Below are positions 6,854 to 27,552 of a DNA stretch of 36,685 bases, in pieces. The notes under the pieces are model-generated. The model saw only the letters and a program-made list of their open reading frames with translations, was not told where the DNA came from and did not search any database. The DNA is from an archaeon (GTDB taxonomy: Archaea; Thermoplasmatota; Thermoplasmata; Methanomassiliicoccales; Methanomethylophilaceae): assembly GCA_024399275.1 (NCBI GenBank), contig JAKSHS010000007.1, positions 1-36,685 on the forward strand. The letters run 5' to 3'. The translations under genes and the position numbers were made by a program. The first letter of the stretch is position 1; each line of letters begins with the position of its first letter.

Positions 6854-7382
6854 AATACCACAGGATAGAATTGGAGCAATAATTGGAATCAAGGGCCAGA
6901 CAAAAAGAATACTCCAGAAAACATCTGGAGTTAAATTCAGTGTCGATTCTGAAGGTGAAGTTCTTATTTACGATAATGAGGAAGCGAATCCGTTGTCTGT
7001 TCTCAAGACTGTAGACGTTATTAAGGCTATTGGGAGAGGATTTGCACCAGACAGGGCTATGAAATTGTTCAACGACGATGAATATCTCGACATAATAAAC
7101 CTAAAAGAATTCACTGGCAAAAAGAGTGACCGATTATTGACGATTAGAGGTAGAATAATAGGCAAAGACGGAAAAACTCGTCAAATTATAGAAAGTCTTA
7201 CGGGCGTATACATCACTGTTTACGGCAACACTATCGGATTTATTGGCAATCCTTTTAATCTTCCGATAGCAAAGCATGCGATCGAACTTATTCTTAACGG
7301 AAGCGAGCATGCAACTGTATATCGATATCTAGAAAACCAGAGATCAAGAATCAAGATTAACGAGATGGGATTCGATCTTTGA
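6840..7382 (+). CDS. KH-domain RNA-binding protein (archaeal Dim2/Pno1 type)
   Basis: This 180-residue protein has two KH domains. The first carries IGAIIGIKGQTKR at about residues 11-23, and the second RGRIIGKDGKTRQ at about 103-115; both contain the GxxG RNA-binding loop (GIKG, GKDG). Archaeal Dim2/Pno1 proteins bind the 3' end region of small-subunit rRNA and work with the KsgA/Dim1 dimethylase and Nob1 nuclease. The gene overlaps the end of RIO1 by 14 nt and has GAGGAAGAG a few bases before the ATG. The presence of both RIO1 and KsgA in the same operon supports a role in ribosome assembly. Confidence 0.92.
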   Translation: MQSIRIPQDRIGAIIGIKGQTKRILQKTSGVKFSVDSEGEVLIYDNEEANPLSVLKTVDVIKAIGRGFAPDRAMKLFNDDEYLDIINLKEFTGKKSDRLLTIRGRIIGKDGKTRQIIESLTGVYITVYGNTIGFIGNPFNLPIAKHAIELILNGSEHATVYRYLENQRSRIKINEMGFDL

Positions 7383-25090: not shown

Positions 25091-26248
25091 TCATCTCGGA
25101 TACGTTGTGTCGCCCATTAGAGGATCAACAAGCCTCCCGACAACAGAATCTCTTACAAATCTATTATAACCACTCAAACTCGGCTTCATCTCCATAATAT
25201 TGTCTAGCGTCATTTTAATATGCTTAAAAATTTTTTTATACACTTTGCAAGGGAATCCGTCGTTGTCTTCAATATTGCCATCTGCCATGGTGTCAATACT
25301 ACATTCTCCGTTGCAATAGCCATAAACTTCACAGCTTTGACATTTCTTACGTCTTTCAATAGAGCCGACGAGTATTCTTCTAAATCCGTCAGACTCAAAA
25401 AGATCCCTTATCCTCTCAATCCTTGAAATATTGCCCATAAAGAAAGTTTTTGGACACGCTTTTCCACACGGGTATACATCTCCGTTAGGATACACAGAAA
25501 TCCATTTCATCAGACATGACGAATGTGGGCAATCAAAAATACTCTGAGATCTATTCATTATCGCACTGATATACTGCGTAAAAGGAACTATGGGTGTACA
25601 TGTAGTACTGTCATGGAGCCAAACATCATAAATTTCAATTAACCTCTGAGCATATTCATCTGCATCTAACATCAATTCGGGGTACTTGCGAGCATTTCCT
25701 AGATTAATAACAGGATTGAACGAAAGAGGTAATTTCATCGTCCTAACTCTCTGATATATTTTCTTCATATCATCTACGTTGCCCCTATGTATTGTAGCAC
25801 TTACAAAAGACGCGCAACCGTCTTTAACCATGTAGCTCACCATAGAATCAACAAATTTTACATCCAAATTCGGCCGCAATCCTCTCTCAAAACCCACCTC
25901 ATAAGACACCCCGATGCTCACCCTATTATTTTTGCAGAATCTAATAAAGCGCGAGTTCAAAAGAGTCCCATTAGTTCTTATAACATTACCACATGTCCGC
26001 CCCCCAAAACACTTCTTCTGAACATCTATGGCATTCTTGAAAAAAGCAGTTTGCATCATAAGCGGTTCCCCTCCATGCCATACAAACATCGCTGAATCAT
26101 AAGACTCTGAAACTAAACTTACAACTCTTTTGTACAGCCCAATATCCATTACACCGTAAGCAGGTTCACAATCACCATGATAGCAATGTCTACACCGGAG
26201 GTTACAATCAAGCGTGGGCTTGATCACAACCGCAATGAAAGATCCCAA
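25091..26248 (-). CDS. Radical SAM/SPASM enzyme, probable peptide maturase
   Basis: This 385-residue protein has a radical SAM domain with CNLRCRHC (Cys15, Cys19, Cys22) binding the 4Fe-4S cluster that cleaves S-adenosylmethionine, and HGGEP at 58-62. The C-terminal SPASM domain fits the family rule exactly: Cys245, ten residues, Gly256, four residues, Cys261, then Cys303-x2-Cys306-x5-Cys312-x3-Cys316 and Cys334, binding two auxiliary clusters. Such enzymes form thioether or C-C crosslinks in ribosomal peptides, or oxidise Cys/Ser of sulfatases. The start is TTG at 26248, with AGGTG five nt upstream. No sulfatase is nearby, but a cysteine-rich peptide gene ends 33 nt upstream on the same strand, the likely substrate. 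Confidence 0.9.
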   Translation of the reverse strand: MGSFIAVVIKPTLDCNLRCRHCYHGDCEPAYGVMDIGLYKRVVSLVSESYDSAMFVWHGGEPLMMQTAFFKNAIDVQKKCFGGRTCGNVIRTNGTLLNSRFIRFCKNNRVSIGVSYEVGFERGLRPNLDVKFVDSMVSYMVKDGCASFVSATIHRGNVDDMKKIYQRVRTMKLPLSFNPVINLGNARKYPELMLDADEYAQRLIEIYDVWLHDSTTCTPIVPFTQYISAIMNRSQSIFDCPHSSCLMKWISVYPNGDVYPCGKACPKTFFMGNISRIERIRDLFESDGFRRILVGSIERRKKCQSCEVYGYCNGECSIDTMADGNIEDNDGFPCKVYKKIFKHIKMTLDNIMEMKPSLSGYNRFVRDSVVGRLVDPLMGDTTYPR

Positions 26249-26281
26249 CTCCGCACCTGGTCAGGGGAAACACACGGCCAA

Positions 26282-26542
26282 CTAGAACGGCCAGCAAGAC
26301 TCAACGCACCCATCTGGACTCAACGTATACGAGCAACAAACGGCCGCAATTGCAGTCACGGCTACAAGCGACACACAGCACTTAGCCCCGCAGCATCCAT
26401 AGCAAGACGGATCACCAGTGTGCGCCTTCGCCTCCCACGAGTCCTCTCGACCAGTAGGCGCCCTATAATTCACCCTAGCAAACGAATTCGACTGACCTTC
26501 ATAAATCAGCACGAGGTCTTTGTTGGATTTCGGTTCTCCCAT
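26282..26542 (-). CDS. Cysteine-rich peptide, candidate RiPP precursor
   Basis: This 86-residue peptide matches no family I know. The ATG at 26542 has GGTGA seven nt upstream. Residues 1-46 are polar, with charged leader-like sequence (MGEPKSNKDLVLIYEG). The last 40 residues hold nine cysteines (47, 50, 51, 55, 56, 69, 70, 79, 83), in pairs around a hydrophobic VSLVAVTAIAAV segment, ending CVESCWPF. Leader plus Cys-rich core is the layout of radical-SAM-modified peptides. The gene is 33 nt upstream of the SPASM enzyme and divergent from DUF5685. Local GC by hand count is about 54% over 26281-26520, well above flanking genes, suggesting different constraint or transfer. The stop is TAG. An alternative is an unmodified metal-binding peptide. 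Confidence 0.7.
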   Translation of the reverse strand: MGEPKSNKDLVLIYEGQSNSFARVNYRAPTGREDSWEAKAHTGDPSCYGCCGAKCCVSLVAVTAIAAVCCSYTLSPDGCVESCWPF

Positions 26543-26598
26543 CAGCTTCTCACCAATGCCCGTACGAGACATAAACAGCAGGTGCACATGTTAAAACC

Positions 26599-26611
26599 AT
26601 ATATTAAATAT
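26599..26611. promoter_or_regulatory. Shared AT-rich promoter element between the Cys-rich peptide and DUF5685 genes
   Basis: ATATATTAAATAT (within 26599-26611) is the only strong TATA-like element in the 89-bp divergent spacer and reads as a TATA box in both directions. On the plus strand it is about 27 nt before the DUF5685 ATG, predicting a leaderless transcript. On the minus strand, initiation near 26577 would give the peptide gene a leader of about 35 nt that includes its GGTGA ribosome-binding site. Coordinated expression is therefore likely. Confidence 0.55.
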
Positions 26612-26631
26612 TCCCATAAGGCAGCAAGCCT

Positions 26632-27552
26632 ATGTTTGGATATATCATTCCCATTGAAAATGAACTTTCACTCAGTCAAAAGGCAACATACAGAAACTAC
26701 TACTGTGAAACCTGTCATCATCTGAAGGAAAAGTATGGCTATATGTCAACTCTCACAGTCAATTACGAGATGACCTTCGCAACTATCTTCTTTGACTCGA
26801 TTTTACACAAAAACGAATTATTCCATAAACAGAAAAAAGCTAGATTTTGTATATTTGGACATAGTGTTTGCGACAAAAAATTAATGCATGAATTAGCGGC
26901 GTATACTGTATTAGCAATAAATAATAGCCTGATTGACGATAGAGAGGACAACACCCATTTCTTAAGAACAAAACTTGCTTTGTTATGTCTAAATCGTGCT
27001 ATAGTAAAAGCAAAAAAAGAATTTCCGAAATATGATGTCTTAATTCTCAATGGATACAAAAAATTAAGAAAAGCAGAACTTATGAAAGAATCAGATCCAC
27101 TTATAATGGGAGCATATTCAGCACAATCCATGTTGGACGTCTTTTCACTTATGTTAGGTAGTAAATTCAGTGATGGGCTCTATAAACTATTCAAAAGCCT
27201 CGGCATCTGGATTTACATTATGGACGCTATCGAAGACCTCGATGAAGACGATTCTAGAGGCACATATAACCCATTCCTCATAAACGACACCAACTTCAAG
27301 AACAAAAGGCAATTCATAAATGACAACGCTTTTGACATTGGAGAATTAGTTGGTGGTATTACCAACAATATTCAAAAATCATATCTTAGTCTACGTTCAA
27401 ATCTAAAATCTAACACCGAGATATTAGACAACATAATATTCCGAGGCGTACCACTTTCATCCCATAAAATTATCTGTGGCAATACGTCACCGAATTTAGG
27501 TTTAAAGCAAAGGATCAGTGAGACTATGTCTGCAGCAACCATACGATCGTGA
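26632..27552 (+). CDS. DUF5685 family protein
   Basis: This 306-residue protein matches DUF5685, known mainly from anaerobic Firmicutes: start MFGYIIPIENELS, CETCHHLKEKYG with Cys25 and Cys28, then LTVNYEMTF. Two acidic motifs stand out: LIDDREDN (residues 100-107) and MDAIEDLDED (197-206), the second followed by RGTYNPFL. Spacing of about 95 residues and the all-helical sequence resemble the DxxxD motif pair of squalene/phytoene-type prenyl synthases. That resemblance is my inference, and an enzymatic role is not established. The gene is divergent from the Cys-rich peptide gene with a shared promoter region. Transfer from gut bacteria is possible. Confidence 0.75.
   Translation: MFGYIIPIENELSLSQKATYRNYYCETCHHLKEKYGYMSTLTVNYEMTFATIFFDSILHKNELFHKQKKARFCIFGHSVCDKKLMHELAAYTVLAINNSLIDDREDNTHFLRTKLALLCLNRAIVKAKKEFPKYDVLILNGYKKLRKAELMKESDPLIMGAYSAQSMLDVFSLMLGSKFSDGLYKLFKSLGIWIYIMDAIEDLDEDDSRGTYNPFLINDTNFKNKRQFINDNAFDIGELVGGITNNIQKSYLSLRSNLKSNTEILDNIIFRGVPLSSHKIICGNTSPNLGLKQRISETMSAATIRS

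Follow-up and report, generated by a model that had tools for sequence, protein, structure and literature searches.

A family-wide gene cassette of the Methanomethylophilaceae whose probable product is a chemically modified, perhaps lipid-bearing, membrane peptide of a new kind

The window, that is, the whole stretch of 36,685 nucleotides analysed here (contig JAKSHS010000007.1, from an archaeon of the family Methanomethylophilaceae), contains a compact three-gene locus. It consists of a gene for a short cysteine-rich precursor peptide, a gene for a radical SAM/SPASM enzyme and a divergently oriented gene for a DUF5685 protein. The features are as follows.

26282–26542, minus strand: precursor peptide gene, 86 aa, ATG start, TAG stop
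26492–26515, minus strand: putative leader recognition motif L10xxxY14xxQ17 (LVLIYEGQ), whose Y and Q never vary among 66 distinct precursors
26285–26404, minus strand: core region, residues 47–86, with nine Cys, the invariant C..CC, C.Y and C-terminal W-P(-F)
26321–26377, minus strand: hydrophobic segment, residues 56–74, mean Kyte-Doolittle hydropathy 2.1, possible membrane helix
26550–26554, minus strand: GGTGA ribosome-binding site of the peptide
25091–26248, minus strand: radical SAM/SPASM enzyme, 385 aa, TTG start at 26248, with CxxxCxxC and SPASM cysteines
26254–26258, minus strand: AGGTG ribosome-binding site of the enzyme
26632–27552, plus strand: DUF5685 protein, 306 aa, predicted class I isoprenoid-synthase fold
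26599–26608, no strand assigned: TATA-like box TTTAATATAT, A/T-rich, one box common to the divergent genes

A preliminary description had read most of these elements from the DNA, and they were found where it placed them. The open reading frame at 26282–26542 encodes a peptide whose nine cysteines (residues 47–83) all lie in the C-terminal 40 residues, and GGTGA precedes it. The enzyme gene follows on the same strand after a gap of 33 nt (26249–26281), within which it has its own AGGTG, and the TATA-like box lies between the peptide and the divergent DUF5685 gene. Of the interval given there, 26282–27552, the part covering the peptide and DUF5685 holds, while the enzyme falls outside it.

A second version of the entire region, about 88% identical, is present in the same bin on contig C9 (the window being C14). 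The RLI gene, normally single-copy, is likewise doubled, bin contamination is 5.1%, and the C9 version is probably another strain binned together. Having two versions in one bin makes it possible to test for selection on the peptide. Between the two copies, dN is 0.041 and dS 0.589 (dN/dS 0.07), 24 of 32 differences fall at third codon positions, and the ratio is as low as in flanking housekeeping genes. The peptide is thus under strong purifying selection and, on this codon-level comparison, is a real protein, not a chance reading frame. The TATA-like box is identical in the sister copy. The start is the ATG, a longer GTG alternative being unusable in the sister; the TTG start of the enzyme fits the N-termini of its homologues (MGQF..., MKPF...). 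The count of nine cysteines, correct for the window, is no constant of the family: the sister peptide has eight, and the family range is 8–13. In the C9 peptide, a Tyr stands in place of the Cys that precedes W-P-F.

Each gene was sought separately, and peptide, enzyme and DUF5685 were found in an identical set of 36 of 390 Thermoplasmatota genomes, all of them Methanomethylophilaceae, with none elsewhere in the phylum genomes. In a set of 61 genomes, comprising the window's own genome and 60 relatives searched individually for DUF5685, peptide and enzyme, nearly every Methanomethylophilaceae genome carries all three genes or none. The exception, G001, has a piece of DUF5685 at the edge of a contig. 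From the comparison of 390 genomes, matches in G067, G108 and G121 were excluded as below cut-off or as stop-ridden chance matches. Fisher's test for co-occurrence gives p = 1e-51, a value that overstates independence, given related genomes and adjacent genes. Stronger evidence for co-inheritance comes from genomes in which DUF5685 is retained at a distance from the peptide and enzyme (about 4 kb in G006, about 19–20 kb in G240 and on another contig in G409), and from joint absence of the three genes, which recurs in separate genera (G002, G335 and three g14 genomes) and is explicable in some cases by incompleteness.

A scan of 84,980 species genomes yielded about 65 family loci, after which matches fall to 33% identity. 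The samples behind these loci come from rumen, termite, horse and digester. Wherever a family locus extends far enough to tell, the peptide adjoins the enzyme, and the order peptide, enzyme, divergent DUF5685 is fixed in about 60 loci, nearly all of the family. No exporter or protease was recognised among the recurrent neighbour genes of the family loci, as the preliminary description had noted for the locus itself. These observations support its proposal that the three genes form a dedicated, RiPP-like peptide-modification system. The cassette is real, family-wide and unreported in the literature searched, where no paper on it was found and where the single mention of DUF5685 gives nothing beyond its name. 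Two loci carry frameshifts that may be sequencing errors or gene decay: RumEn M2 in the enzyme (L118:6001-7166), and 1R26 in the enzyme and apparently also the peptide (L120:5591-7157).

Alignment of 66 distinct precursors reveals a common plan of leader, variable acidic linker and core. In the leader, the Y and Q of YxxQ are invariant in all 66, and most precursors have LxxxYxxQS. The core consensus is C-(D)-[YWF]-x-C-C, a hydrophobic stretch, C-C-x-Y-x-T-x-[DNH]-G and finally W-P-[F]. Its fully invariant residues are four Cys, one Tyr, the Trp and the Pro; the cysteines occupy core columns 1, 5, 6 and 33 (C..CC and one in CC.Y). Cysteines in the hydrophobic stretch are often exchanged with V, A, L or I, and consequently some of them cannot be sites of modification. 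This pattern runs contrary to the earlier expectation of conserved cysteine spacing with a varying leader, since the leader YxxQ is invariant, only four cysteines are, and the W-P end is the most conserved stretch of the precursor. Across the family, the hydrophobic stretch has a median mean hydropathy of 2.1 over 19 residues and ends about 12 residues before the C-terminus, which is compatible with a membrane helix. Structure prediction for the peptide gives two helices at pLDDT 60.

The Trp, present in 66 of 66 precursors, is the third residue from the C-terminus. The stop codon directly follows W-P-F: it is TGA in all 61 relatives checked and in the sister, and TAG in the window (26282–26284). 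Because the stop is placed immediately after W-P-F across relatives, a free C-terminus at a fixed distance from the Trp is probably under selection. Interpreting the CWPF that ends the window's peptide as CaaX was rejected, as most relatives end in YWPF and the Cys is private to the window. Pyrrolysine use of TAG is known in the order Methanomassiliicoccales; read-through of the window's TAG was rejected because the relatives all have TGA at that place, and no PylS was found over the cut-off in the 79%-complete bin.

The enzyme exceeds the cut-offs of PF04055 (32.6 bits), PF13186 (30.0 bits) and TIGR04085 (43.7 bits, cut-off 27), and the cysteines of its CxxxCxxC and SPASM pattern are invariant. 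It falls below the cut-off of all NCBIfam radical-SAM equivalogs. The closest of these is the dynobactin maturase DynA (NF041298), at 171 bits against a cut-off of 450; the methanogen peptide-modifying model TIGR04083 gives 112 against 300. All family enzymes fall in one clade. Two core types exist, one with a Cys tail and a short mid-section and the other with an aromatic W/Y-T-Y-W tail, and the core type tracks the enzyme tree with two changes, the minimum possible. One locus (L130:5950-7053, the same as L057, G004:C19) has a full-length enzyme frame that lacks CxxxCxxC and QTNG and keeps the SPASM cysteines. There DUF5685 is kept, and the precursor retains almost all invariant residues. This enzyme would be either a pseudoenzyme or a case of early decay; if it is not decaying, it suggests that DUF5685 and the peptide can function without the radical step.

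The nearest enzyme relatives outside the family come from Clostridia (Eubacterium, Lachnospiraceae, Ruminococcus), at 29–33% identity; a search of 150 genomes for further ones returned a single genome, the starting one. These Clostridial relatives adjoin Tyr/Asp-repeat precursors. One such precursor reads ELALVYAGQENG...YMYSDYMYSDY and continues into membrane helices, and another reads NLFEEYISQDS...DDYDCHTDYGEHCDDDYGDIYVD. Tyr/Asp-repeat precursors with LxxxYxxQ lie in L123 and L124 from about position 7100, running on into membrane helices, and at L125:4591-4761. LxxxYxxQ is common to both outgroup precursors and to the archaeal leader (DLVLIYEGQSN in the window); an outgroup pairing with the window's leader has 6 of 12 identities (E 0.015). 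The motif was noticed after the fact, and it occurs in only 4 of 758 other reading frames of the outgroup loci. Its presence in archaeal and Clostridial precursors alike is suggestive of a docking site that guides this enzyme clade, whose ancestral targets may have been aromatic residues.

The DUF5685 protein matches PF18937 with 162 bits (cut-off 26.7). Its AlphaFold model, built from 45 aligned sequences, is all-helical (pLDDT 87, pTM 0.87). In a Foldseek comparison with the PDB, 50 of 50 among the matches listed have the isoprenoid-synthase fold, and they include octaprenyl and hexaprenyl synthases, the MoeN5 prenyltransferase, squalene synthases, and terpene synthases and cyclases. The best E-value is weak (0.04), with TM scores of 0.4–0.5 and probabilities up to 1.00. 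A sequence search of the PDB gave nothing convincing; only the fold comparison was informative. Two aspartate motifs are conserved in the 45 sequences: D102-D103-x-x-D106, with D102 and D106 invariant and D103 in at least 90%, and D198-x3-D202-x3-D206, with all three invariant. In class I enzymes, the first Asp-rich motif and the second motif/NSE triad are spaced in the same way. Since the matches are unanimous and the motifs are present, poor E-values notwithstanding, DUF5685 is, as judged from its model, an isoprenoid-synthase-fold protein. This fold points to prenyl chemistry in addition to crosslinking.

Unusual features of DUF5685 are a CxxCH (residues 25–29) and C73; the CxxC and C73 also occur in a Clostridial-type member (L006). 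The family is widespread in Clostridia, where it is followed by a J-domain gene and occurs without the cassette peptide, which indicates a general role broader than the peptide. In L149, L150 and L151 the two genes form a conserved operon, preceded in L149 by a gene for a small zinc-ribbon-like, Cys-containing membrane protein. This operon resembles the cassette in that its DUF5685 has the Asp motifs and CxxC, and differs in having neither a radical-SAM enzyme nor a W-P peptide. A Clostridial-type DUF5685-DnaJ-DnaK cluster is also found in the same archaeal order, in another family (L152:8290-9102, G058), through transfer or contamination.

Several known systems are comparable. ComQ and PalQ, which have the isoprenoid-synthase fold, prenylate a Trp of RiPP precursors, a C-terminal one in the case of PalQ (PMC10853753, PMC13290415). 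The ComQ-ComX and PalQ-PalX pairs resemble the cassette in combining an isoprenoid-synthase-fold protein containing DDxxD with an adjacent short precursor that has a conserved Trp in its C-terminal part. In contrast to them, the cassette is archaeal, adds a radical-SAM enzyme and places its Trp third from the end, followed by Pro-Phe, and DUF5685 has a full second Asp motif and CxxCH/C73. Known Trp prenyltransferases are marked by a Gln directly before the second Asp motif (PMC13290415). In DUF5685 this position lacks Gln (Y195-x-M/L/I-D198), and membership in the ComQ/PalQ group is therefore not claimed.

SCIFF/ranthipeptide systems, widespread in Clostridia, pair a six-Cys peptide with a SPASM maturase. 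The cassette resembles them in having a short Cys-rich peptide that adjoins a SPASM enzyme and is vertically kept across a whole clade. It differs in its enzyme score on the maturase model TIGR03974 (46 bits, cut-off 425), its invariant W-P tail and its DUF5685 partner. Among dynobactin and darobactin maturases (DynA, DarE), DynA provides the closest model, and the Tyr-repeat precursors of the Clostridial relatives are of the kind used by three-residue cyclophane enzymes. However, the enzyme scores far under the DynA cut-off, and the archaeal core is Cys-rich and without repeats.

The proposed explanation is a vertically inherited RiPP-like cassette in which the radical SAM enzyme modifies the core, DUF5685 prenylates it and the product is membrane-bound; drawn from sequence conservation, the fold model and analogy, it stands at about an even chance of being right. 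The N-terminal helix of the precursor, with LxxxYxxQ, would act as the recognition leader, as its conservation suggests. The SPASM enzyme, judging by its family, would then oxidatively modify the C-terminal core, a crosslink to a Cys or aromatic residue being the likeliest outcome (candidates are thioether, ether and C-C bonds, and oxidation). DUF5685, from its fold and motifs, would bind a prenyl diphosphate and prenylate the core, most plausibly at the invariant near-terminal Trp (W-P-F-COOH) or at an invariant Cys. The hydrophobic segment and the prenyl tail would hold the product in or on the membrane of the producing cell, itself built of isoprenoid lipids; that no exporter or protease accompanies the genes agrees with this. 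Prenylation is favoured because a protein of the isoprenoid-synthase fold always goes together with a precursor whose invariant Trp lies near a fixed C-terminus, and because ComQ and PalQ provide a precedent. The proposal is weakened by the weak Foldseek E-value, the missing Gln, the occurrence of DUF5685 in Clostridia without the peptide, the retention of peptide and DUF5685 in L130 beside an enzyme lacking CxxxCxxC, and gene adjacency, which makes co-absence partly a single event. DUF5685 might also bind a prenyl group without transferring it. Only tentatively can the product be regarded as a new RiPP-like class, in which a Cys-rich peptide of archaea would reside in the membrane, crosslinked by a radical SAM enzyme and prenylated; DUF5685 would then represent a new peptide prenyltransferase family containing both Asp motifs.

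It is also conceivable, though rather unlikely, that only the radical-SAM enzyme modifies the peptide (by a thioether, ether or C-C crosslink) and that DUF5685, having kept the fold without prenyltransferase action, serves as chaperone, carrier or partner. The nearest named families of the enzyme are crosslinking or oxidising SPASM enzymes, DUF5685 stands beside a DnaJ-domain gene in Clostridia that have no such peptides, and the conservation of its CxxCH and C73 hints at a role outside the canonical one. However, a non-catalytic protein would not need both conserved prenyl-diphosphate motifs, and DUF5685 outlives the catalytic motif of the enzyme in L130. Another reading makes the peptide a metallo- or redox protein, small, Cys-rich and located in the membrane, which the enzyme and DUF5685 mature or use as an electron carrier. 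Exactly four fully invariant cysteines, a count typical of Fe-S or Zn sites, would suit such a protein, as would recurrent neighbours that include no exporter or protease. This reading is improbable: it leaves the invariant W-P at a fixed C-terminus and the leader motif unexplained, cysteines vary in number and place and partly trade with V, A or L, and the low-confidence predicted structure has no metal-site-like fold.

The preliminary description had named grouping with sulfatase-maturating enzymes as a case against its proposal. If the enzyme were an anaerobic sulfatase-maturing enzyme (AnSME) acting elsewhere, the peptide would be a bystander. AnSMEs share with it the radical SAM and SPASM domains and the QTNG motif, are its nearest solved structures (4k36 at 6e-44) and give 150 bits on TIGR03942. 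That score lies well under the cut-off of 349, and sulfatases (PF00884) were found in none of 11 family genomes by a search that was positive in 10 of 14 controls. The enzyme, unlike AnSMEs, has a peptide partner, which is present wherever the enzyme occurs. With no sulfatase genes in the 11 genomes and the peptide present whenever the enzyme is, sulfatase maturation is refuted, and we give it hardly any residual probability.

If the prenylation reading is true, a radical-SAM peptide system would gain prenyl transfer, and this in archaea, from which few systems of the kind have been described. DUF5685, an unstudied family also present in Clostridia, gains a predicted fold and a testable chemistry. 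The cassette is a near-core trait of a family of methyl-reducing methanogens from rumen, termite and digester samples, and it is present in members with complete genomes, so that it is directly testable by proteomics.

Other genes recur around the family loci. An 84-aa Cys-rich protein (KCRTCRFCIHS...ENC...CSDYDP) is encoded next to the 3' end of DUF5685 in many loci; its cluster counts 16 loci, not all of them genuine members (examples are L043:8652-8906, L045:7783-8037 and L042:11135-11389). At 2–3 kb downstream of the enzyme, a gene resembling homoserine O-acyltransferase recurs in 15 loci and one resembling cysteine synthase in 13, placing sulfur amino-acid genes beside the cassette, for example at L043:15317-16249 and L047:5417-6343.
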